Origin: an uncultured Clostridia bacterium
Lineage (GTDB): Bacteria > Bacillota > Clostridia > Christensenellales > CAG-314
NCBI GenBank assembly: GCA_947570215.1
Contig: CANOTO010000001.1
Location: 62,001-126,000 of the forward strand
Direction: 5' to 3'
DNA length: 64,000 bases
Of this stretch, positions 32,114-53,679 are shown piece by piece. The notes below the pieces were generated by a model. The model was not told the DNA's origin and ran no database searches. It saw only the letters and a list, made by a program, of their open reading frames with translations. Position numbers and translations under genes: made by a program. Positions within the stretch are counted from its first letter, which is position 1; each line of letters opens with the position of its first letter.

Positions 32114-32926
32114 TTATTTTATTTGCAGTATTTCCTTTATTTCGTCCATTTTGGCTTTCGCCGCGCGGTAGCCTTCTTCAATCATATCGTCAATATGGTC
32201 GAGAGCGGTATTTTTGTAAGCGGACAATTCCGGCTCTATTACTACGTCGCTGTTCATTTCGCCCTTGTACATTGTGGACTTGGTTGTAATACTCCAAGTT
32301 GCAACAAGCGTATCTTTAAGCTTGCGTGACGTTGTGCCTTTACCGCGGTTATGGTTGAGATCTACGCCTACAACCACGTCCGCGCCCATTCGTCTGCAAA
32401 CGTCGGCGGGCATATTGTTCAACAGTCCGCCGTCTACAAGTAGCATATCGTCAATTACGACGGGAGTAAACAGGGCGGGTACGGCGCAGGAAGCGGATAC
32501 CGCCGTCGCCACGTCGCCGTCGTTTAGAATAACTTCGTTACCGCTGCGTATGTCTACAGCAACGGCAGAAAAAGGAATATCGAGCTGTTGAAAAATAGCT
32601 CCGCCAAGAAGTCTGTCCGCTATGGCGCGGATATTAGCGGAATCAGAGCCTATCATAAACTTCGAATTAAGCACGTCCTTGCGTTTCAGCGCCTTGGCTT
32701 CGTCCGTCATTCTTTGCAAAGATACTCCGGCGCAAAAGCACGCGCCTACGAGCGCGCCCGCGCTGGTGCCCGCTACAACGTCTATACGTATACGTTCTTC
32801 GGCAAACGCTTTGATAACGCCTGCGTGCGCGAGTCCGCGAGTTCCGCCGCCTGACAACGCCAAACCTAATTTATAGCGCGATTTTACAAAACCGTCGTCG
32901 CTTTTTTTACGCGCGAATATTGCCAT
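32114..32926 (-). CDS. patatin-like phospholipase (RssA-type), 270 aa
   Basis: Ser-Asp dyad hydrolase motifs are LALSGGGTRGLAHAGV (oxyanion loop), GTSAG at 53-57 with nucleophile Ser55, and LLVDGGLLNNMP with the catalytic Asp near 165. There is no signal peptide, so it acts in the cytoplasm or on the inner face of the membrane. The start is ATG 32926 (MAIFARKKSD), six bases after a TATAAT box, with no ribosome site, so it is probably leaderless. It heads a leftward series patatin-MBL-MBL-aroC-aroB-aroAE-aroQ-aroK. The lipid substrate is unknown. Confidence 0.9.
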   Translation of the reverse strand: MAIFARKKSDDGFVKSRYKLGLALSGGGTRGLAHAGVIKAFAEERIRIDVVAGTSAGALVGACFCAGVSLQRMTDEAKALKRKDVLNSKFMIGSDSANIRAIADRLLGGAIFQQLDIPFSAVAVDIRSGNEVILNDGDVATAVSASCAVPALFTPVVIDDMLLVDGGLLNNMPADVCRRMGADVVVGVDLNHNRGKGTTSRKLKDTLVATWSITTKSTMYKGEMNSDVVIEPELSAYKNTALDHIDDMIEEGYRAAKAKMDEIKEILQIK

Positions 32927-32932
32927 ATACAA

Positions 32933-32961
32933 ATTATACAATACGTTGACGATTTTTGCAA
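32933..32961 (-). promoter_or_regulatory. leaderless promoter of the patatin/aro operon
   Basis: Minus strand TTGCAA (32956-32961), 17-base spacer, TATAAT (32933-32938), then six bases TTGTAT and the ATG at 32926. The transcript should begin at the start codon. It lies just past the terminator of the preceding operon. Confidence 0.75.
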
Positions 32962-33025: not shown

Positions 33026-34363
33026 TTAGGAATTTTGATCCGCGTCGTTTTCAAAAGTTTCGATAGAGACGCTCTCGACATGTGCAATCGGTTTCCATTC
33101 GACCTTTTTGAATATTGCGACAACGGAAATAGGAATATACGTCAGCATAAATAACGGAAACGTAAATACGTACAATATTTTTTTCCACCAAGACGTATGT
33201 ATTTTCTTCCACTCTGTAACGCATATAGACAGAGAAATGATAAGCATCATTCCGTATACGGAGGCAAAGTTTATGAGCAACGACAAACAAGCAAACCAAG
33301 CATTAGCCAAATCTCCCATACACAAAGCCACGACGGAAGTAACGGGCAAGACGGTTAAGGTTAAAAGCGAAATTAACAATGCGGGAAATATTGTGGTAAA
33401 TATATCCCAACAAGAAAAATGCTTAAAAAAGCCGGAGACTAATCTGCCGCCGTATTTACCGAATACTTGATAAAAACCTTTCGCCCAACGCTCACGCTGC
33501 TTCCAAGATTGCGCAAAAGTTTCGGGCTGCTCGTCGAACAATTCGGCGGTACTGCAATAAGCGACCTTTCTGCCGGACAGCGCGTACGCCGTCGAACACT
33601 GAATATCTTCCGTCAACGTAAAAAAGTTCCAATTACCGAATTCCTGAACGACGTTTCTCGCAATTAAAAAACCCGTTCCCGATATCGCGCAAGAATTATG
33701 CAGCATCATACGGGCATTATTCAAATGTCTCGCTTCGTGTAAAAACCAATATCCGTATCCCGAAGTAATCCAATTCTTACCGATATTCTTAGAGTTTCGA
33801 TAAGATGTTACCATATCGTAACCGCAATCGTAGGTTTTGTTCATTTCATAGATATAGTTAGACCTTATTACGTTGTCCGCATCTAAAATAACGTAAGCTT
33901 CGGGGACTAAATCTGCGTACTGTTCTTCACTGTGAAGCTTAGTGAAAAAATAATTGAGAGCGTATCCTTTACCAATCAATTTATCGTCAAACCGCTCTAT
34001 TACTACACACCCTTTGTCGCGCGCAATCTGAGCCGTATCGTCGGTACAATTGTCTGCGATTACGAATATCGAAAGCAATTCTTTGGGATAATCGTTATTC
34101 CAGACGCTGTCGATAAGATTTCCTATTACTTTACTTTCGTTCCGAGCGGATATTACAACGCCTATCCGATGATTTTTTATCTCTCCGTTCTTCTTTTTTA
34201 CCTTGCAATGCTTTAATGTGCCTATTAGCAAATAAAACATCTGATGCACGTACATAACAAAAAAAATCAGCGCGATTACATTGACAAAATAGTATATAAA
34301 AGCTTCGATCGGAGCATTGAAAGGTATATGCCCGTTATATTTTATTAAATCTACAATTAGCAT
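33026..34363 (-). CDS. membrane family-2 glycosyltransferase, 445 aa
   Basis: An N-terminal pair of helices (residues about 22-50) is followed by a GT-A domain: VVISARNESKVIGNLIDS, VIADNCTDDT, DAD at 161-163 (D-x-D), TED at 251-253 and QRERW at 289-293. These are the D,D,D,QxxRW pattern of processive synthases such as cellulose, hyaluronan or poly-GlcNAc synthase. Four more C-terminal helices would form the extrusion channel. The product is therefore probably an exported polysaccharide or glycolipid. It is last in the operon whose promoter has the nine-G tract, 45 bases after the phosphoesterase gene. Confidence 0.88.
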   Translation of the reverse strand: MLIVDLIKYNGHIPFNAPIEAFIYYFVNVIALIFFVMYVHQMFYLLIGTLKHCKVKKKNGEIKNHRIGVVISARNESKVIGNLIDSVWNNDYPKELLSIFVIADNCTDDTAQIARDKGCVVIERFDDKLIGKGYALNYFFTKLHSEEQYADLVPEAYVILDADNVIRSNYIYEMNKTYDCGYDMVTSYRNSKNIGKNWITSGYGYWFLHEARHLNNARMMLHNSCAISGTGFLIARNVVQEFGNWNFFTLTEDIQCSTAYALSGRKVAYCSTAELFDEQPETFAQSWKQRERWAKGFYQVFGKYGGRLVSGFFKHFSCWDIFTTIFPALLISLLTLTVLPVTSVVALCMGDLANAWFACLSLLINFASVYGMMLIISLSICVTEWKKIHTSWWKKILYVFTFPLFMLTYIPISVVAIFKKVEWKPIAHVESVSIETFENDADQNS

Positions 34364-34408: not shown

Positions 34409-36037
34409 TCAAACGACAGCTTCGAAACAGGCGCTCGGTATCCACTTTGCGTTTTCGAAGTCTCTGCCCAACACTAAAACCTTATTTTCGTAAACCCTTA
34501 CGTAATACCCCTGTGAACCGCGTAAATATTCGCCTGTCGGAATATAATAGCTGCTCCACAGATACGCTACGGACGCCGTATTGAAAATATTGGGCAAGCC
34601 GTCGGACTTGTCGTGCATCGAACCGCGAGTATTCATGTCCCAATGGCTGTGTCCGTTAAACATATATATCTGCGGATATTTAGCCACTATACTTCTAAAC
34701 TGTTCGTTCTGAACAATCCCGTCCCAGCCTTGTCCTTCGAAGCTTCCGGCAATCGTATCGTACAACGACTGATGCAAATACACGAAAACGGGCTTACTCG
34801 GCTGTGACGCAGTGAGCTCCTGCATTCTGTTATCGAACCACGACAGCTGATTTTGCGATAAATCGGCATCCAATCCGTTAGACTTGGATTCGCTGCCCAA
34901 AAACAAATGGTAATAGCCGTCGATAACCCTTTCATAATATACCGAGTCCGTCTGAGCATACGTCATAAAGTTCTGCGCAAGCGTAAAATAGCTTTCGGAG
35001 CCGTATAGATCGTGATTTCCCAACGAGAAATAAAACCTTGGCAAGCGAGCAACCGAAGCAATCAATTCGTTCGCGTGTCTCCATTCGTAATCACGCCCGG
35101 AATTGGCTATGTCGCCCACGACAAATACTCCGCTGCTTTGCGGACTGTTCGAGACGATATCGTTACACATTGCAAGAAAATGCGCGTCGTGCAATTGTTT
35201 TGCGTCGGCGCTTGCCAAATGAGTATCCGCAACCGCTATATGAACGTCGCTTACGACTTGAAATTCCGTTATAAGCTTGCCGCCGAATTTATACTGACAG
35301 TCTGTGGGCAATATGACTTCGCAGTAATCTGCGCTCATACCCAAACTGTTTTTACCGTACGCAAGCAATCTCGTAGCTTCGGAGGGTATAACGGTATTTG
35401 CGTACATTCTAAAAGAAAAACGTCTGCTTGTAACGAAAAACGGGGCCAGACATGTGTAATCGGGCAACGCACCGTTTTCGTCAGCCCAATACAAAACTAC
35501 TTCTTCGGCGCAAGAGTTTTCGCCGAAGGTTATATCCAAAACGCCGTCAGCCAACCCGTCGCCGACATTTTCCAATTTATAAACTACACTTTGGGGCGCC
35601 TGCGGCAAAGCAAGACTTTTCTTGGATACGCTGAATTTTACCGTTTGTAAAATTATATTATCCGTACGGTTATTAAATAAAATAAGCTTATACTTTCCGC
35701 GCGGAATATTGCGGAACGCTTGACGACTTTCGTTATAAACGCTGCAACGTCTGAAAGCATACGTTTCGCCCGGCACAAATCCGTTTTTGCAAACGTCTAA
35801 GTGTCTTATTGCTTCGACCTTGCTTACGTCGTCGATTTCACGATACAAGCCTATCCAAGCTTCCTGCTCGCCCTTGGCGGAAAAATAAATCTCTTCCCCG
35901 TCCAAATATTCCTTTTTATTTACGCTGAAAATATCGTTGCCGTTCAAATCATTCGGATTGCAGCCAAACAGCAACACAATAGACACAACGGAAATTATGC
36001 AGATTATTAAAGCGCAAAGTCTGTTTTTCGACGACAT
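34409..36037 (-). CDS. lipoprotein metallophosphoesterase with an N-terminal repeat module, 542 aa
   Basis: I use ATG 36037 (MSSKNRLCALII); GGAG in the stop region of the upstream gene serves as its ribosome site. The lipobox VLLFGC gives lipidation near residue 26. Residues about 35-140 are a beta module (VNKKEYLDGEEIYFSA...AWIGLYREI...IPRGKYKLILFNN) homologous to four repeats in the next gene upstream. Calcineurin-like motifs follow: SDVHI, GDIANSGRDYEW, GNHDLYG, LHQSL and NGHSHWD. It hydrolyses a phosphate ester or phosphodiester outside the cell; the substrate is unknown. Confidence 0.88.
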   Translation of the reverse strand: MSSKNRLCALIICIISVVSIVLLFGCNPNDLNGNDIFSVNKKEYLDGEEIYFSAKGEQEAWIGLYREIDDVSKVEAIRHLDVCKNGFVPGETYAFRRCSVYNESRQAFRNIPRGKYKLILFNNRTDNIILQTVKFSVSKKSLALPQAPQSVVYKLENVGDGLADGVLDITFGENSCAEEVVLYWADENGALPDYTCLAPFFVTSRRFSFRMYANTVIPSEATRLLAYGKNSLGMSADYCEVILPTDCQYKFGGKLITEFQVVSDVHIAVADTHLASADAKQLHDAHFLAMCNDIVSNSPQSSGVFVVGDIANSGRDYEWRHANELIASVARLPRFYFSLGNHDLYGSESYFTLAQNFMTYAQTDSVYYERVIDGYYHLFLGSESKSNGLDADLSQNQLSWFDNRMQELTASQPSKPVFVYLHQSLYDTIAGSFEGQGWDGIVQNEQFRSIVAKYPQIYMFNGHSHWDMNTRGSMHDKSDGLPNIFNTASVAYLWSSYYIPTGEYLRGSQGYYVRVYENKVLVLGRDFENAKWIPSACFEAVV

Positions 36038-36041
36038 ACGT

Positions 36042-39000
36042 TTACTCCGCGGCACTTACTACTCTAAATTCGAATTGCGACTCAATCGTATAACCGCTCG
36101 AATTGAACAATACGACTTTATATACGCCTTCCGTCAAAACCGGCAAATCGTTAGGCGAGTTCGGAGTGCGTGCTTCCGCCATAATATCGTACGTTCCGCC
36201 CGAAGCGTGAGTTGCGTCAACAGCGTAATACCACCTAACGGACGGAACCGCCGCAATGTCGGTCTGAGAAACGGGATATAAACCTATCCACCATCCTTCA
36301 CCTTCGGGTGCGTACGCCGTAACGTAAACGGATTCTCCCGATACGTAAACGTCTTTATCCGTGAAGATAGTTCCGATTGTCGGTTGCTCATCGTCCGTTC
36401 CCAGTTGAATATCGAGTTGTTTCACTATCTTAACGGCATAGCCGTAGCCTGCAAACAAAACCACCTTGTAACTGCCGGCACGCAGAGTCAAGCTTTCGGA
36501 CATTGCCGTTTGCGCAAGCAAGTCGTAGCCTTCGCCCGAAACGTGATTAGCATCCTCGACTTTGTACATGTAAAGCGCGTTCTCCAACGAAACTTCGTTA
36601 GCAGACTTGAACAACCCTACGTAATAAGTAATTAGCGAACCTTCAGGCTGCGTTGCAGTAGCCATTATAGGAGCGTTAAGATCGTACTTATTAGCGTCCA
36701 ATTCAAGCGTAGCCGACATATCTACAACCAGTTCGTTTACCGTGAAATACACCGTTTCTTCCACATCGTAACCGGAAGTGTTAAACAAAACAAATTTGTA
36801 GTCGCCGGCCGGAAGGTTGAAGTATTCCAAACGGTTGATATTTGCAATTTGTTTGCGTATATCGTAGGCGATTCCCGATAAGTGGTTGTCATCTTTAACG
36901 TAATAGTAGTAAATAGAGCCTACCGACGAATAATCGCCGTCAACAGCATCGTCGGCAAGGTACAAGCCTACCCACCAAGATGATGGAAGCGAATCGGCAG
37001 GTGCAAACGCCTTCACAAATACGTCTTCCCCTTCCGTATACGTAGTTTTATCGGTAGACAGCGGCTTGATATCGCTTTCCGTTACAGTTAAAACGGCGTA
37101 ACGACGCTCCAGCTCGACACCGTCGGCATCGCTAAACACGGCGATAGCTTCGACTTTGCCGATTTCTGTTAAAGTATTGTTAAAGTAACTTACGCTGACG
37201 CCGTTAGGTAATTTGCCGGTTATAAGCAATTCGTGCGCTTCTCCGTCGTACATAATGGTACAGTCTTCGAATCCAACGCCGCTTAAATCCACCGTTCCGC
37301 TGTTTTTGAATGACGGCAGAACCGTTACTTCCACGCTGTAAACGTATTCATAGCCGCTATCGTTGAAATAATAGATGACGTAATCTCCGGAAGGAAGATA
37401 TTCCTCGAACGATTCGCCGCGGCAATTAACACATTTATCGTTCAAACGCGAGTTAAACGCTCCGCAATCAATGCATACGGAATACAGCTTGTTGGAAATC
37501 TGTTCCTGTAAACAGTACGTGCGTGTAAAGCTGTCACCCCTCTGATTGATATAAAAGTACATATACGAGATTTGACCTTGGTCCGTATTACCCGGAATTG
37601 CGCCCTTTTTGTAAATGCCGACCCAAGCCCCGCCTGACAAGTTTTCTGTTTTAATATCTACCGTGACATAAATATTTTCGCGGAAGTTATAAACCGTTTT
37701 GTTCGTAGACAGCTTGCCAACGGTAATAGTCGCGGATCTACGCCCTACCACATTGCCGTTTTTGGTAAATGTGGCGATTATTTCTTTTGTTCCCACTTCC
37801 GTTAAAACCGGCGGTTGACTATACGAGACTTCCACACCGTCCGGCAGATTAAACGCTTCTATACGTTTTTCCGTTCCGTCGTAAAGGAAATTGGCGCTGT
37901 CGAACTTGATTTGCGACAAATCAACAACGTCTTCGTATTCGTACACTATGTCCGCCTTGACGGGAGTCGCCTTGTCCCAATCGAATTCGCCGTCAAACCA
38001 GTTCGTACCGAAGACATCCAGCAAATCCATATACGATTTTACTCCGCCGTTGGCGTAGCTCTGCTCCTTGCCGTCCGTATCGACGTATCTGACGTATTGA
38101 AGGAAATCCTTCGAAACTACGTCGGAGTACTGAGTGTCTATATACTTATAAAGCTCGTACGCAGGCTTCGGCTCACGATTGATGTCCAATAAACCGAATC
38201 GGGTATGTCCGGCCAGTTCGTTTTTGTGGTCGAATAGCCGATAGTAACAAAATGCTTTGACAGTATCTAACTGCGACAGTTTGTACCAAATAGCAGCGAT
38301 ACATCCCGCTTGATTATTTTTGTCTTGTTCGTCGTCGTCAAAACTGGAAACGCCTTGTTCCGTCAAATAAACATTGCGCGTTTTGCCGTTTACCTTCATT
38401 TTGTCTTGCTTTAAGAATTGGTCTATCAGTTCTATATTGGAAAACGTTATTTTGCCCGATGTTTCGAAATCGTTAGTCATTCCGCCGCCCAAGCCCGTTA
38501 TGGCGCTGATAGGCTTTTTGCCGTTAATCGTATCGTTATAAAAAACTTCGGACAACGCCAATCCGTAGGTATAGCAGTGAGGAGCAATTCCCCAATCGTA
38601 ATCGCCTTCCAATTTGGTTTTTACGTTTAACCACTCTACCATAGCCTTGGGTGCGTAAGACGACACCTTGTCGTCAAGCTCGGAGTAGCCACGATTAGCC
38701 CAAGACTGCGTAATAGGCATGCATACGGTTATATCCTTGTGGTATTTTTTTAGCGACAAATTAGATAAACGAAGCAACCGCGAATACTCTTCCATATAAA
38801 CGTCGAGTGACGCGTGCTTTTCGGATATTCTGTTGTAGTCGCGAGCGTAATCGATTTCGTTGCCTATTACGAAATTAGCTATATAGCCGTTAGGCAATCC
38901 GTTCAAAGAATATCTTTCCGCAAAGAATTCCATCATTGCAACGAAGTATTCGAATCCGTATCTATTGGAAGTGTTAAGCCCCACTAACGGCGGAACACCT

Positions 39001-39842
39001 TGTCCGCTGACAGCCATAGTAGCCCACGGCAAATACGTCATTTTGGCGGGGAAGGTTTCGGATTGCTCCGAGATATTGTTATTAGTCGCATAAATTATAC
39101 CCGTAATATGCGCTCCCGCAGAGTAATAGCCCCTTACGTTGTTGTCGTAAGCATCCACCTTGGACTTGCGGAAGTAAAACGTCTTACCGTTAGAATCGAA
39201 CGCATACGCATCGTCGGGATGCGCGAGCGGTATTTCTTCGCCGTCTTCATCAATAAGCTCGTTAGGATAAATAAAATCGGTGATATCCAAATTGATTGCC
39301 GTATAAGAACAATTAAGATCTTTGTAATAATCCAAATTTTCACCGAGTATACCTTTTTTGGACTTTATATCGAATTGCGGAACGGCAGCGGATACGGGAT
39401 CGATTTGCGTAGCATAAATAGGTCCACGCAACACCTTGCCGTCGTGAACCACATAGTATTTGCAATATAATCTGTCGAAGCCGTCGACATATCTGCTTAT
39501 TTCGACGACGCTTTCGGTGCCCAATTTATAGTCGCCGATGAACGTCGATTCGTCGCTCGCCGACAATTTGTCGGCAGACAAACCGTAAAGCTGTTGTTCG
39601 CCTTCGATATATTCGTATGCTTTGACCGCCGCAACTTTAACAGTTGCGTTGCCCACTTCGCTTTCGACGCTGTTCAATTCTACTCGGATTTTATCCGAAG
39701 TAACGAAAACCTGCATCGATATTTTTTCTTGCGTGATACCGCCGATAACAGTATTTTCATCCATATCCACGCAAGCTACCAATACGGACGAAGCGAGCAC
39801 GAATACGAATAAAAACGTTAAAATCCGTAATAAACGTTTCAT
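36042..39842 (-). CDS. giant lipoprotein: glycosidase-like (DUF5722-like) domain plus four surface modules, 1266 aa
   Basis: The signal and lipobox VLVAC place lipid at Cys24. Residues about 150-600 look like a (beta/alpha)8 glycoside-hydrolase clan-A domain. FVIGNEIDYARDYN offers the Asn-Glu acid/base and VYLTEQGVSSF the nucleophile, and the order resembles DUF5722 proteins. Two Ig-like domains (EAFNLPDGVEVSYSQPPV and LITGKLPNGVSVSYFNN) alternate with four roughly 110-residue modules (WVGIYKKG, WWVGLYLAD, YYVGLFKSA, WWIGLYPVS; each ends GDYKFVLFN-like). The first module has an inserted CIDCG...CVNC knuckle. It is the first gene of a three-gene operon behind the nine-G promoter. Confidence 0.82.
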   Translation of the reverse strand: MKRLLRILTFLFVFVLASSVLVACVDMDENTVIGGITQEKISMQVFVTSDKIRVELNSVESEVGNATVKVAAVKAYEYIEGEQQLYGLSADKLSASDESTFIGDYKLGTESVVEISRYVDGFDRLYCKYYVVHDGKVLRGPIYATQIDPVSAAVPQFDIKSKKGILGENLDYYKDLNCSYTAINLDITDFIYPNELIDEDGEEIPLAHPDDAYAFDSNGKTFYFRKSKVDAYDNNVRGYYSAGAHITGIIYATNNNISEQSETFPAKMTYLPWATMAVSGQGVPPLVGLNTSNRYGFEYFVAMMEFFAERYSLNGLPNGYIANFVIGNEIDYARDYNRISEKHASLDVYMEEYSRLLRLSNLSLKKYHKDITVCMPITQSWANRGYSELDDKVSSYAPKAMVEWLNVKTKLEGDYDWGIAPHCYTYGLALSEVFYNDTINGKKPISAITGLGGGMTNDFETSGKITFSNIELIDQFLKQDKMKVNGKTRNVYLTEQGVSSFDDDEQDKNNQAGCIAAIWYKLSQLDTVKAFCYYRLFDHKNELAGHTRFGLLDINREPKPAYELYKYIDTQYSDVVSKDFLQYVRYVDTDGKEQSYANGGVKSYMDLLDVFGTNWFDGEFDWDKATPVKADIVYEYEDVVDLSQIKFDSANFLYDGTEKRIEAFNLPDGVEVSYSQPPVLTEVGTKEIIATFTKNGNVVGRRSATITVGKLSTNKTVYNFRENIYVTVDIKTENLSGGAWVGIYKKGAIPGNTDQGQISYMYFYINQRGDSFTRTYCLQEQISNKLYSVCIDCGAFNSRLNDKCVNCRGESFEEYLPSGDYVIYYFNDSGYEYVYSVEVTVLPSFKNSGTVDLSGVGFEDCTIMYDGEAHELLITGKLPNGVSVSYFNNTLTEIGKVEAIAVFSDADGVELERRYAVLTVTESDIKPLSTDKTTYTEGEDVFVKAFAPADSLPSSWWVGLYLADDAVDGDYSSVGSIYYYYVKDDNHLSGIAYDIRKQIANINRLEYFNLPAGDYKFVLFNTSGYDVEETVYFTVNELVVDMSATLELDANKYDLNAPIMATATQPEGSLITYYVGLFKSANEVSLENALYMYKVEDANHVSGEGYDLLAQTAMSESLTLRAGSYKVVLFAGYGYAVKIVKQLDIQLGTDDEQPTIGTIFTDKDVYVSGESVYVTAYAPEGEGWWIGLYPVSQTDIAAVPSVRWYYAVDATHASGGTYDIMAEARTPNSPNDLPVLTEGVYKVVLFNSSGYTIESQFEFRVVSAAE

Positions 39843-39974
39843 TTTGCAGCATTCTCCCGATATGAAATATCTGTTAGTATTTGAAATCCGCCGATTTATT
39901 ATTACAGCTTCTCAAAGCCGCCATTCTCAATCAATTGCGGGCTATTTCAAATGTCTATACTTTTAAGTATTTTG

Positions 39975-40004
39975 AGTATACCCCCCCCCGCGTTCAAAAG
40001 TCAA
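39975..40004 (-). promoter_or_regulatory. promoter with nine-G tract in the spacer (candidate phase-variable promoter)
   Basis: Minus strand TTGACT (39999-40004), an 18-base spacer made of TTTGAACGC plus nine G (39989-39981), then TATACT (39975-39980). Loss of one G would give the optimal 17-base spacing; gain would weaken it. It drives the 1266-aa lipoprotein, phosphoesterase and glycosyltransferase operon. Confidence 0.75.
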
Positions 40005-40200: not shown

Positions 40201-40234
40201 AAAAACCCGCAAGGAACACTTTTCCCTGCGGGTT
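40201..40234 (-). terminator. terminator of the perR-rubredoxin-rubrerythrin operon
   Basis: AACCCGCA (40204-40211) pairs with TGCGGGTT (40227-40234); on the minus strand it is followed by TTTTT. Confidence 0.85.
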
Positions 40235-51209: not shown

Positions 51210-51218
51210 CCCCCCCCC
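51210..51218 (+). repeat. homopolymer of nine C in the leader of the barnase operon
   Basis: CTTCT followed by nine C and GCGGCG. The plus-strand spelling C9-GCG is the same as at 39981-39992. It lies 31 bases before ATG 51250 and between promoter and ribosome site. In-frame codons also exist through the tract, so it could affect either RNA structure or an alternative upstream start. Confidence 0.85.
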
Positions 51219-51249: not shown

Positions 51250-53679
51250 ATGAGACAAAAGAAACTCGCTCTTGTGTCGCTTGTTCTTGTATTTTGCTGT
51301 ACGCTGATTCTTGCCGCGTGCCAAAATCAAGTTACGGTAACGTATTCCTATAACGGCGGAATAATATCATCTACCGTAAACAAAGGCGACTGTGCAACCC
51401 CGCCCACTTACAACGTTCCGGACGGTTACGAAATAGTATGGTACGACGACATAAACTTCAAAACCAAGTGGGACTTGACCGCGCCTGTTACGGAAGACAT
51501 TACGTTGTTCGGCAAGTTAGAAGCCAAGCCCGTACAAATAACCTTCGTTAAAAACGGCGAAACGGTAGATACCACAAGCGTTCCCGCGGCGGACAGAATA
51601 GTCTACCCCGCAATAAGCGGCAATACCGCGACCATATGGTACGAAGACGAAGCCGCAACCAAAATATGGAATTGCGACCAACCCGCGGGCAACAGTCGCA
51701 CGCTTTACGGCAAGGACGTTGCGCTTACCACTATTGCGCAGGCACTCGAGATAGCCGAAACGCACGTAGAGGAAGCCACGACGGAAAGATATCTGATAAA
51801 AGGTACCGTAAAAGCCGTAAGCAATGCGTCCTACGGAGAAATGACAATAACCGACGGCACTAACGATCTGTACGTTTACGGCAGCTACGCTTCCGACGGA
51901 GTAAACAGATATTCCGATTTAGTAAAAAAGCCGTATAAAGGCGACGAAGTGCTGCTATACTGTACGCTGCAGAACTTCCAAGAAAAAACGAAACAGGCCA
52001 AGTCGGCGTGGATTATCGACTTCGCATCCGTACCGGATACAAGCTTTAACGAAGCGGACTACACCGCCATGAACTTGGAATACGCGCGCTTTGCCGATGC
52101 GGGAACATTGGTAAAGGTAACGGGCGTAGTATCGCAAATTATTTACGCCGAAGGAATGAAGCCCTGCGGATTTTACCTTATCGACAATACGTCTTCTATT
52201 TACGTGTACGACTCTCAATTAACGCCGCAGGTTAAAGTCGGCAATACCGTCACGCTTTGCGCGGAAAAAGCGTATTACGTATTAGAGTCGGAAAAGGCAA
52301 ACGCAATAAAATTCGGATACTTGGGTTGTAATCAGCTTCAAGACGCTCATTTGATAAACAATGACAACAACACCTCCGCATTCGATAACAGCTGGATGCA
52401 GGAAAAGACCGTAAAAGAAATTATGGAAACCCCCGTAACGCAGGACGTGGCTTCTCTTACGTACAAAACCACCGCTCTTATACGGAAAGTTCCCGGAAAC
52501 GGCTTTACAAACTACTACGTGAACGATATAGACGGCATAACCGGTTCATACGTTTACACTATGTGCAGCGGAAGTGACTTTACTTGGTTGGACGAATTCG
52601 ACGGTAAGATTTGTACCGTGTACCTGTCCCCGCTTAACGCCAAGAGCAATCCTTCGGGTTGCTTGTGGAGATTTATTCCCATAGCCGTAAAATATGAAAA
52701 CTACACTTTCGATAAAGCCGACGCGGCGGAATTTGCAATAAAGTACTACGCCGCAGACCAATTCCAATCGCAATATAAATACTGCGATTTGACGGATTTA
52801 ACGATAGACCTTACCACAAGCGTTTCGTCCGATCTGCTCGGCATATCCGACGTAAAAATACAATACTCTTCCAGCAATCCCGCGGTTATGTCCATAGACA
52901 CGCAGGGTTCGGCAGTTAAAGCTACGCTGTGCGGAACGGGCGAAACCACCATTACGATGAGAGCTACGTACGCAGGCTACAAAACTTACGAACAAACGAA
53001 AAAGATAACCGTAACCGAAGCTCAGCTGTATCCCAACGCCTTTAATGTTAGTCAGGCAATAAGCGCGGCGCTTCAAGAACAGGTTACCGTAAGCGGAATA
53101 GTAGGACCTTCGCTTGTAAACAGAGACGGGTTCTATCTCATCGACGAAACGGGCGCGATAGCCGTTACGACAACGGGCGACGTATTGGCGACGGTAAAGG
53201 TAGGCAACCATGTCGTGCTGAAAGGCGTCAGATCGCAGTTCAACTCCGGTTCGGACAAATCGCAATTCGGTCAGAGCTGCGTATTAGACTGCGAATTGCT
53301 TGCTAACTACTACGGCGAAAAGGAGTACGCAACAGACAGCTTCGTAAGCGGACAAACGCTTGAAAGCCTTAAAGCACTTGACACGAAAGAAGATCATACC
53401 ACCACCGTTTACGTATTGGAAAACGCAAAATTCGTACGCGAAGAAACGGCTTTTTATACCAAGATGATTTTAGCCGTAGGCGAAACTACAATCGACCTGT
53501 ATTGCAGCAGCGCAAACCAATACCGCTGGTTAAACGATTATATATCAAGCGGCAAAACGTTCAAAGTCGAACTGGCTTTGTGCAACTGGAACGGAAAGGC
53601 CTATTTTACAGGTTGTCTACTCGCCGTCTATAACGAAGACGGAACTAAAACATGCAACACACTGAATTTCCAACAATAA
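51250..53679 (+). CDS. lipoprotein with repeated OB-fold-like domains, 809 aa
   Basis: The start is ATG 51250 (MRQKKLALVSLVLVF) after AAAGGAGAAAGG. Lipobox LILAAC gives Cys24. Residues about 30-90 hold a beta-grasp/Flg_new-like segment. Three or more OB-like domains follow, each opening TIAQALEIAETH-, NVSQAISAALQ- or similar and continuing Y-x-I-x-G-T-V (YLIKGTVKAVSNASYGEMTITDGT, VKVTGVVSQIIYAEGMKPCGFYLID, VTVSGIVGPSLVNRDGFYLIDETG). Such OB domains occur in exported nucleases and nucleic-acid-binding proteins. One Ig-like (Big2) domain lies near 530-600. There is no obvious catalytic site. It is first gene of the barnase/barstar operon. Confidence 0.8.
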   Translation: MRQKKLALVSLVLVFCCTLILAACQNQVTVTYSYNGGIISSTVNKGDCATPPTYNVPDGYEIVWYDDINFKTKWDLTAPVTEDITLFGKLEAKPVQITFVKNGETVDTTSVPAADRIVYPAISGNTATIWYEDEAATKIWNCDQPAGNSRTLYGKDVALTTIAQALEIAETHVEEATTERYLIKGTVKAVSNASYGEMTITDGTNDLYVYGSYASDGVNRYSDLVKKPYKGDEVLLYCTLQNFQEKTKQAKSAWIIDFASVPDTSFNEADYTAMNLEYARFADAGTLVKVTGVVSQIIYAEGMKPCGFYLIDNTSSIYVYDSQLTPQVKVGNTVTLCAEKAYYVLESEKANAIKFGYLGCNQLQDAHLINNDNNTSAFDNSWMQEKTVKEIMETPVTQDVASLTYKTTALIRKVPGNGFTNYYVNDIDGITGSYVYTMCSGSDFTWLDEFDGKICTVYLSPLNAKSNPSGCLWRFIPIAVKYENYTFDKADAAEFAIKYYAADQFQSQYKYCDLTDLTIDLTTSVSSDLLGISDVKIQYSSSNPAVMSIDTQGSAVKATLCGTGETTITMRATYAGYKTYEQTKKITVTEAQLYPNAFNVSQAISAALQEQVTVSGIVGPSLVNRDGFYLIDETGAIAVTTTGDVLATVKVGNHVVLKGVRSQFNSGSDKSQFGQSCVLDCELLANYYGEKEYATDSFVSGQTLESLKALDTKEDHTTTVYVLENAKFVREETAFYTKMILAVGETTIDLYCSSANQYRWLNDYISSGKTFKVELALCNWNGKAYFTGCLLAVYNEDGTKTCNTLNFQQ

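Follow-up and report, generated by a model that had tools for sequence, protein, structure and literature searches.

A nine-guanine promoter spacer ahead of a surface lipoprotein operon in an uncultured Clostridia bacterium: a probable phase-variable switch

Phase variation by slippery repeats has been described mostly in Gram-negative mucosal pathogens. The vlp genes of Mycoplasma hyorhinis form a lipoprotein family in which each member has a homopolymer between −35 and −10, composed of poly-A and not of poly-G. The surface protein gene porA of Neisseria meningitidis has a poly-G spacer between −35 and −10, and changes in its length shift the spacing around an optimum of 17 nt (PMC7864442, citing van der Ende 1995). 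In Treponema pallidum, poly-G tracts of variable length are found in the promoters of the surface-protein genes tprL and tprE/G/J (PMC7864442, PMC3656149), and in the case of tprL a tract of 8 G is stronger than one of 10 G (PMC7864442). The Bordetella genes fim2, fim3 and fimX likewise have a promoter homopolymer whose length tunes transcription (PMC1891110), while Campylobacter holds dozens of G tracts that target surface genes and have a modal length of 9 (9 in 53%, 10 in 26%; PMC6321876).

The promoter studied here is located on the minus strand of the window, as we call the whole analysed stretch of 64,000 nucleotides, and shares with porA a G homopolymer between −35 and −10, a predicted change of spacing around a 17-nt optimum and a surface target. 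Read from 40004 to 39975, it consists of TTGACT TTTGAACGC GGGGGGGGG TATACT, where 10 of 12 positions match sigma-70 and the 18-nt spacer ends in nine consecutive G. The −35 element TTGACT (39999..40004, minus strand) matches TTGACA in five of six positions, the pure G9 tract (39981..39989, minus strand) directly adjoins the −10 element TATACT (39975..39980, minus strand), and 132 nt separate the −10 from the ATG at 39842 of a 1266-aa lipoprotein. The sequence description given in the original prediction proved exact. Of the two parallels cited there, Neisseria porA is a close match, whereas Bordetella fim is a poor one, its C-stretch setting the distance between an activator site and the −10 (PMC1891110). 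Differences from porA include the other phylum, and here a strong −35, a tract placed directly against the −10, and dozens of promoters with the same design. The Treponema pallidum promoters differ in that tprL is without good hexamers and has tracts of up to 15–17, and in that a CRP homolog modulates some of them.

The length of the tract is far above chance, as judged from both window shuffles and genome counts. Runs of G or C in the window extend up to 5, the next ones are of 9, and none of 6–8 are present, while G8 words were observed 4 times against 0.53 expected, with at least 4 occurring in 0 of 100 shuffles. A scan of the window with the promoter pattern alone gave 5 sites compared to 3.8 in shuffles, which is not significant by itself; the G9 promoter gains its significance from the fact that the complete architecture recurs, whereas the control gives no match. 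A terminator-like hairpin (40204..40234, minus strand) lies 3′ of the upstream rubrerythrin gene and parts it from the G9 promoter, which is thus likely the operon's own. A short distance 3′ of the −10, around where transcription would be expected to begin, there is an inverted repeat, ATACTTAAAAGTAT (39954-39967), a possible operator. A second tract of the window, C9 at 51210-51218, belongs to the leader of a gene for an 809-aa lipoprotein that has an InlB-type repeat (ATG at 51250). This tract is located about 110 nt 3′ of a TTGATT-16-TATAAT promoter and could represent a post-transcriptional or antisense switch.

The first gene behind the G9 promoter (36042..39842, minus strand) encodes the 1266-aa lipoprotein (MKRLLRILTFLFVFVLASSVLVAC), with the lipobox VLVAC and a DUF5722 domain (PF18989, E 5e-72). 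It overlaps by 14 nt with the gene of a 548-aa calcineurin-like metallophosphoesterase (34409..36055, minus strand), which places both in the same operon, and 45 nt downstream of the latter follows the gene of a 445-aa GT2 membrane glycosyltransferase (33026..34363, minus strand). A patatin-like phospholipase gene (32114..32941, minus strand) could continue the operon, judging from spacing only. The glycosyltransferase resembles EpsU/PgaC and scores far below both curated cut-offs. In regard to the predicted surface-polysaccharide operon, the surface part is well supported by the DUF5722 lipoprotein with its lipobox, while the polysaccharide part is only plausible.

This promoter is accompanied by many other tracts in its own genome, a 1.5-Mb assembly with 43 G-runs of at least 7 (4 G7, 5 G8, 32 G9, 1 G10 and 1 G11) and 76 overlapping G8 words, compared to 0–5 in other families of the order. 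At least nine tracts are positioned inside a TTGACW...TATWMT promoter (L055, L061, L070, L073, L079, L080, L082, L092 and L093), mostly before lipoproteins, and further weaker cases exist; the products of the genes behind the promoter tracts include lipoproteins that carry Ig-like, InlB-type (Flg_new) or GLUG repeats, as well as a subtilase and others. Several G9 tracts are instead placed behind a start codon or in the early part of a reading frame, among them L074 and L071, which are in frame at G9. In L066 (acyltransferase), L077 (secreted protein) and L096 (lipoprotein metallophosphoesterase) the ATG is directly followed by G9; at this length L066 and L077 are out of frame, and L096 has an additional ATG 3′ of the tract. 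An early G9 in HsdS, the specificity subunit of a type I restriction system (L089, G000:C8:12343-15350, tract 1502-1510), is in frame only at G8, which makes it a candidate phasevarion. Runs of G7–G8 are often found at Shine-Dalgarno distance from starts (e.g. L058, L059, L076, L078 and L085), where a change in length could tune translation. The genome thus resembles a Campylobacter-like poly-G phasome in its many tracts, in their mode of 9 and in their presence in both promoters and reading frames. However, Campylobacter tracts are mostly inside reading frames, while here a large share is in promoter spacers. Campylobacter is not known to have MutS/MutL mismatch repair, whereas both proteins are encoded here, with scores above curated cut-offs. 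Loss of mismatch repair is hence ruled out as the cause of the tracts, and since MutS/MutL should slow slippage, its rates may be moderate.

The same promoter design was found far beyond this genome. A search of 25 congeneric species with the pattern TTGACW-N2..10-G8+-N0..4-TATWMT gave 74 matches, with the tract adjoining the −10 in 62 of them, while the reversed-pattern control gave 0 and the poly-C version 1, thus ruling out chance co-occurrence. Across the order, 55 of 297 genomes contain the pattern, as do 23 of the 125 genera sampled, again with no matches of the control. A stricter, G9-only form, searched bacteria-wide in the GTDB species collection with a chance estimate of one or two matches, recovered at least 117 stretches from Clostridia, Bacilli, Treponema, Selenomonadaceae, Streptococcus, Saccharibacteria and others. 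A similar pattern had a single match in 2.9 million viral contigs, by which a phage-borne element is ruled out. PspA-like surface protein genes of Streptococcus sp. 68 and S. thalassemiae (L188, L202) are preceded by a TTGACA-N9-G9-TATACT promoter, on which no report was found in the papers searched. Congeners in the JAMPAB and JAMPEJ records are filed as 'Corallococcus sp.', likely a naming error, since they are 1.5-Mb assemblies placed in one genus with uncultured gut Clostridia.

Among the matches listed for ordinary TTGACA/TATAAT promoters in the genus, 117 of 146 (80%) show a 17-nt spacer, as do 30 of 59 ordinary promoters in the loci of the wide set. Tract promoters, in contrast, avoid this length and sit at 15–16 or 18–19 nt. 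A 17-nt spacer is found in only 1 of the 74 from the genus (10, 1, 25 and 21 promoters at 16, 17, 18 and 19 nt), in 6 of the 75 distinct ones from the order's other genera (21, 6 and 17 at 16, 17 and 18 nt) and in 8 of the 122 that make up the wide set (21, 8 and 40). Between its neighbouring peaks at 16 and 18, the trough at 17 reaches significance in the genus, the other genera and the wide set alike (p 9e-6, 0.003 and 3e-5), with the caution that promoters related to one another are only partly independent and that the sets overlap slightly. The claim that G9 places this promoter one base above the optimum thereby gains independent comparative support. The tract length is 9 in most promoters whatever the remaining spacer, bearing in mind that in the wide set it was imposed by the search pattern, and that an assembly shows only the commonest state of a tract. 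The simplest reading would be that mutation holds the tract near 9, as in Campylobacter, while the remaining spacer is selected in such a way that G9 misses 17. Spacing is the strongest evidence, although its bearing on a length-dependent activity would be indirect.

Tract length itself varies between promoters of this design. Among 15 cores that were found at more than one place, 6 differ in tract length, although one of the six (9 vs 15) may be a coincidence. A tandem array of CWB2 cell-wall surface-protein genes on one contig (CALXBQ010000046; L227, L244) contains four identical tract promoters with G9, G8, G9 and G9, and otherwise equal cores differ by a single G within G001 and within G057 (both G10/G9), between G027 (G9) and G030 (G8), and between G233 (G9) and G291 (G8). 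Such differences with equal flanks come from sister promoters of the same design, while the only homolog of the 1266-aa lipoprotein in the 25 genomes of the genus (G001, 36% identity) is without such a tract. In the 18-nt class, to which this search was fixed, pure tracts greatly outnumber interrupted ones, as slippage would maintain. Interrupted G-rich 18-nt spacers (e.g. G5-C-G5) occur at G022:C209:280-309, G007:C72:19371-19400 and G010:C34:21127-21156, and are possibly locked former switches.

The genes downstream of tract promoters differ from their surroundings. Of 76 such genes, 40 carry a lipobox and 52 a hydrophobic N-terminus, compared to 43 and 104, respectively, of 480 neighbours; in the wide set, a hydrophobic N-terminus was found in 67 of 97 targets compared to 138 of 628 neighbours. 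The signals were called by crude rules of hydrophobicity, which were the same for targets and neighbours. Pfam families of the wide-set targets include BspA-type LRR, Ig-like, InlB-type and cell-wall-binding domains. Control of surface or envelope genes, as in a porA-type SSR promoter, is thus indicated by the lipobox at this locus and by the strong enrichment of lipoproteins among the targets.

Architecture, recurrence, off-optimum spacing, differences of at least one G between identical cores and lipoprotein enrichment are all present in the data, and phase variation by spacer slippage, as originally predicted, is the reading best supported by them. We consider it likely that this is a phase-variable sigma-70-type promoter whose spacing changes by slipped-strand mispairing, whose assembled G9 state is off the optimum, and which belongs to a set serving surface lipoproteins. 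During replication, G9 would gain or lose single Gs, and the changed distance between −35 and −10 would in turn change transcription of the operon for the lipoprotein, the phosphoesterase and the glycosyltransferase. For the assembled G9 (18 nt) we predict low or intermediate expression, for G8 (17 nt), where the promoter would be strongest, high expression, and for G10 (19 nt) again a low one. The G9 promoter would be one of a genome-wide set of promoter, start-codon and coding tracts aimed mainly at surface lipoproteins. Slippage in the species itself and its effect on expression are, in our opinion, probable, and the benefit could lie in diversification of the surface against phage, host immunity or competitors.

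It is also conceivable, if unlikely, that the same slippery promoter is ON at 18 nt, so that the assembled G9 state would be high. DNA with G-tracts is A-form-like, with a shorter rise and about 11 bp per turn, and an 18-nt spacer with G9 could therefore fit RNA polymerase best. Such an optimum would agree with 18 nt being the commonest spacer in two of the three sets, and with the interrupted, presumably stable G-rich 18-nt spacers of some congeners, found in a search fixed at 18 nt; these may function without slippage and thus also speak against the main reading. However, if 18 were the only optimum, the peak at 16 on the other side of the trough would not be expected, and tprL is stronger at G8 than at G10, while the optimum of porA is 17 (PMC7864442). 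A fixed, non-switching promoter, in which a G-stretch by the −10 has a structural or protein-binding role and a constant length within the species, appears rather improbable, since pure tracts far exceed interrupted ones, lengths vary between copies with identical cores, and the mode of 9 recurs in tracts that have nothing to do with a promoter, namely the coding and start-codon ones. Yet the adjacency to the −10 in most genus promoters and the presence of MutS/MutL would both suit such a promoter, as would the strand preference: slippage alone should be strand-blind, and a change of length would not demand a strand, while non-template G outnumbers C in the spacers of the 25 congeners by 74 to 1. 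That a G9 fell by coincidence beside promoter-like hexamers and has no role in transcription would fit the simple promoter scan, which gives no more sites than shuffles, but is hardly credible in view of the reversed pattern, absent both from the genus, against 74 matches, and from the 297 genomes of the order.

Returning to phase variation by spacer slippage, a convergent rule across bacteria could be proposed, about which we are somewhat more doubtful than confident. The mutationally favoured G9 would miss the 17-nt optimum by at least one base, giving promoters that are low by default and slip to high; the tract would have to be non-template G against the −10, implying an effect of G-tracts beyond that on distance; and in this Clostridia lineage the rule would run a lipoprotein phasome. 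The mechanism itself is known, while its breadth in gut Clostridia, the avoidance of 17 nt and the G-only orientation appear to be undescribed in the papers searched, in which the cases of phase variation from gut Clostridia are invertible DNA. Comparison with hundreds of genomes suggests that this promoter of an uncultured gut bacterium may be one of dozens of slippery switches, mostly at least one base off the best spacing, that would randomly shift surface proteins up or down. Avoidance of 17 nt would offer a simple rule by which assemblies or reads could be used to predict whether a promoter is ON or OFF. If this is true, surface lipoproteins of common commensals would vary within one host, through the poly-G set described here and through the same design in other gut lineages.
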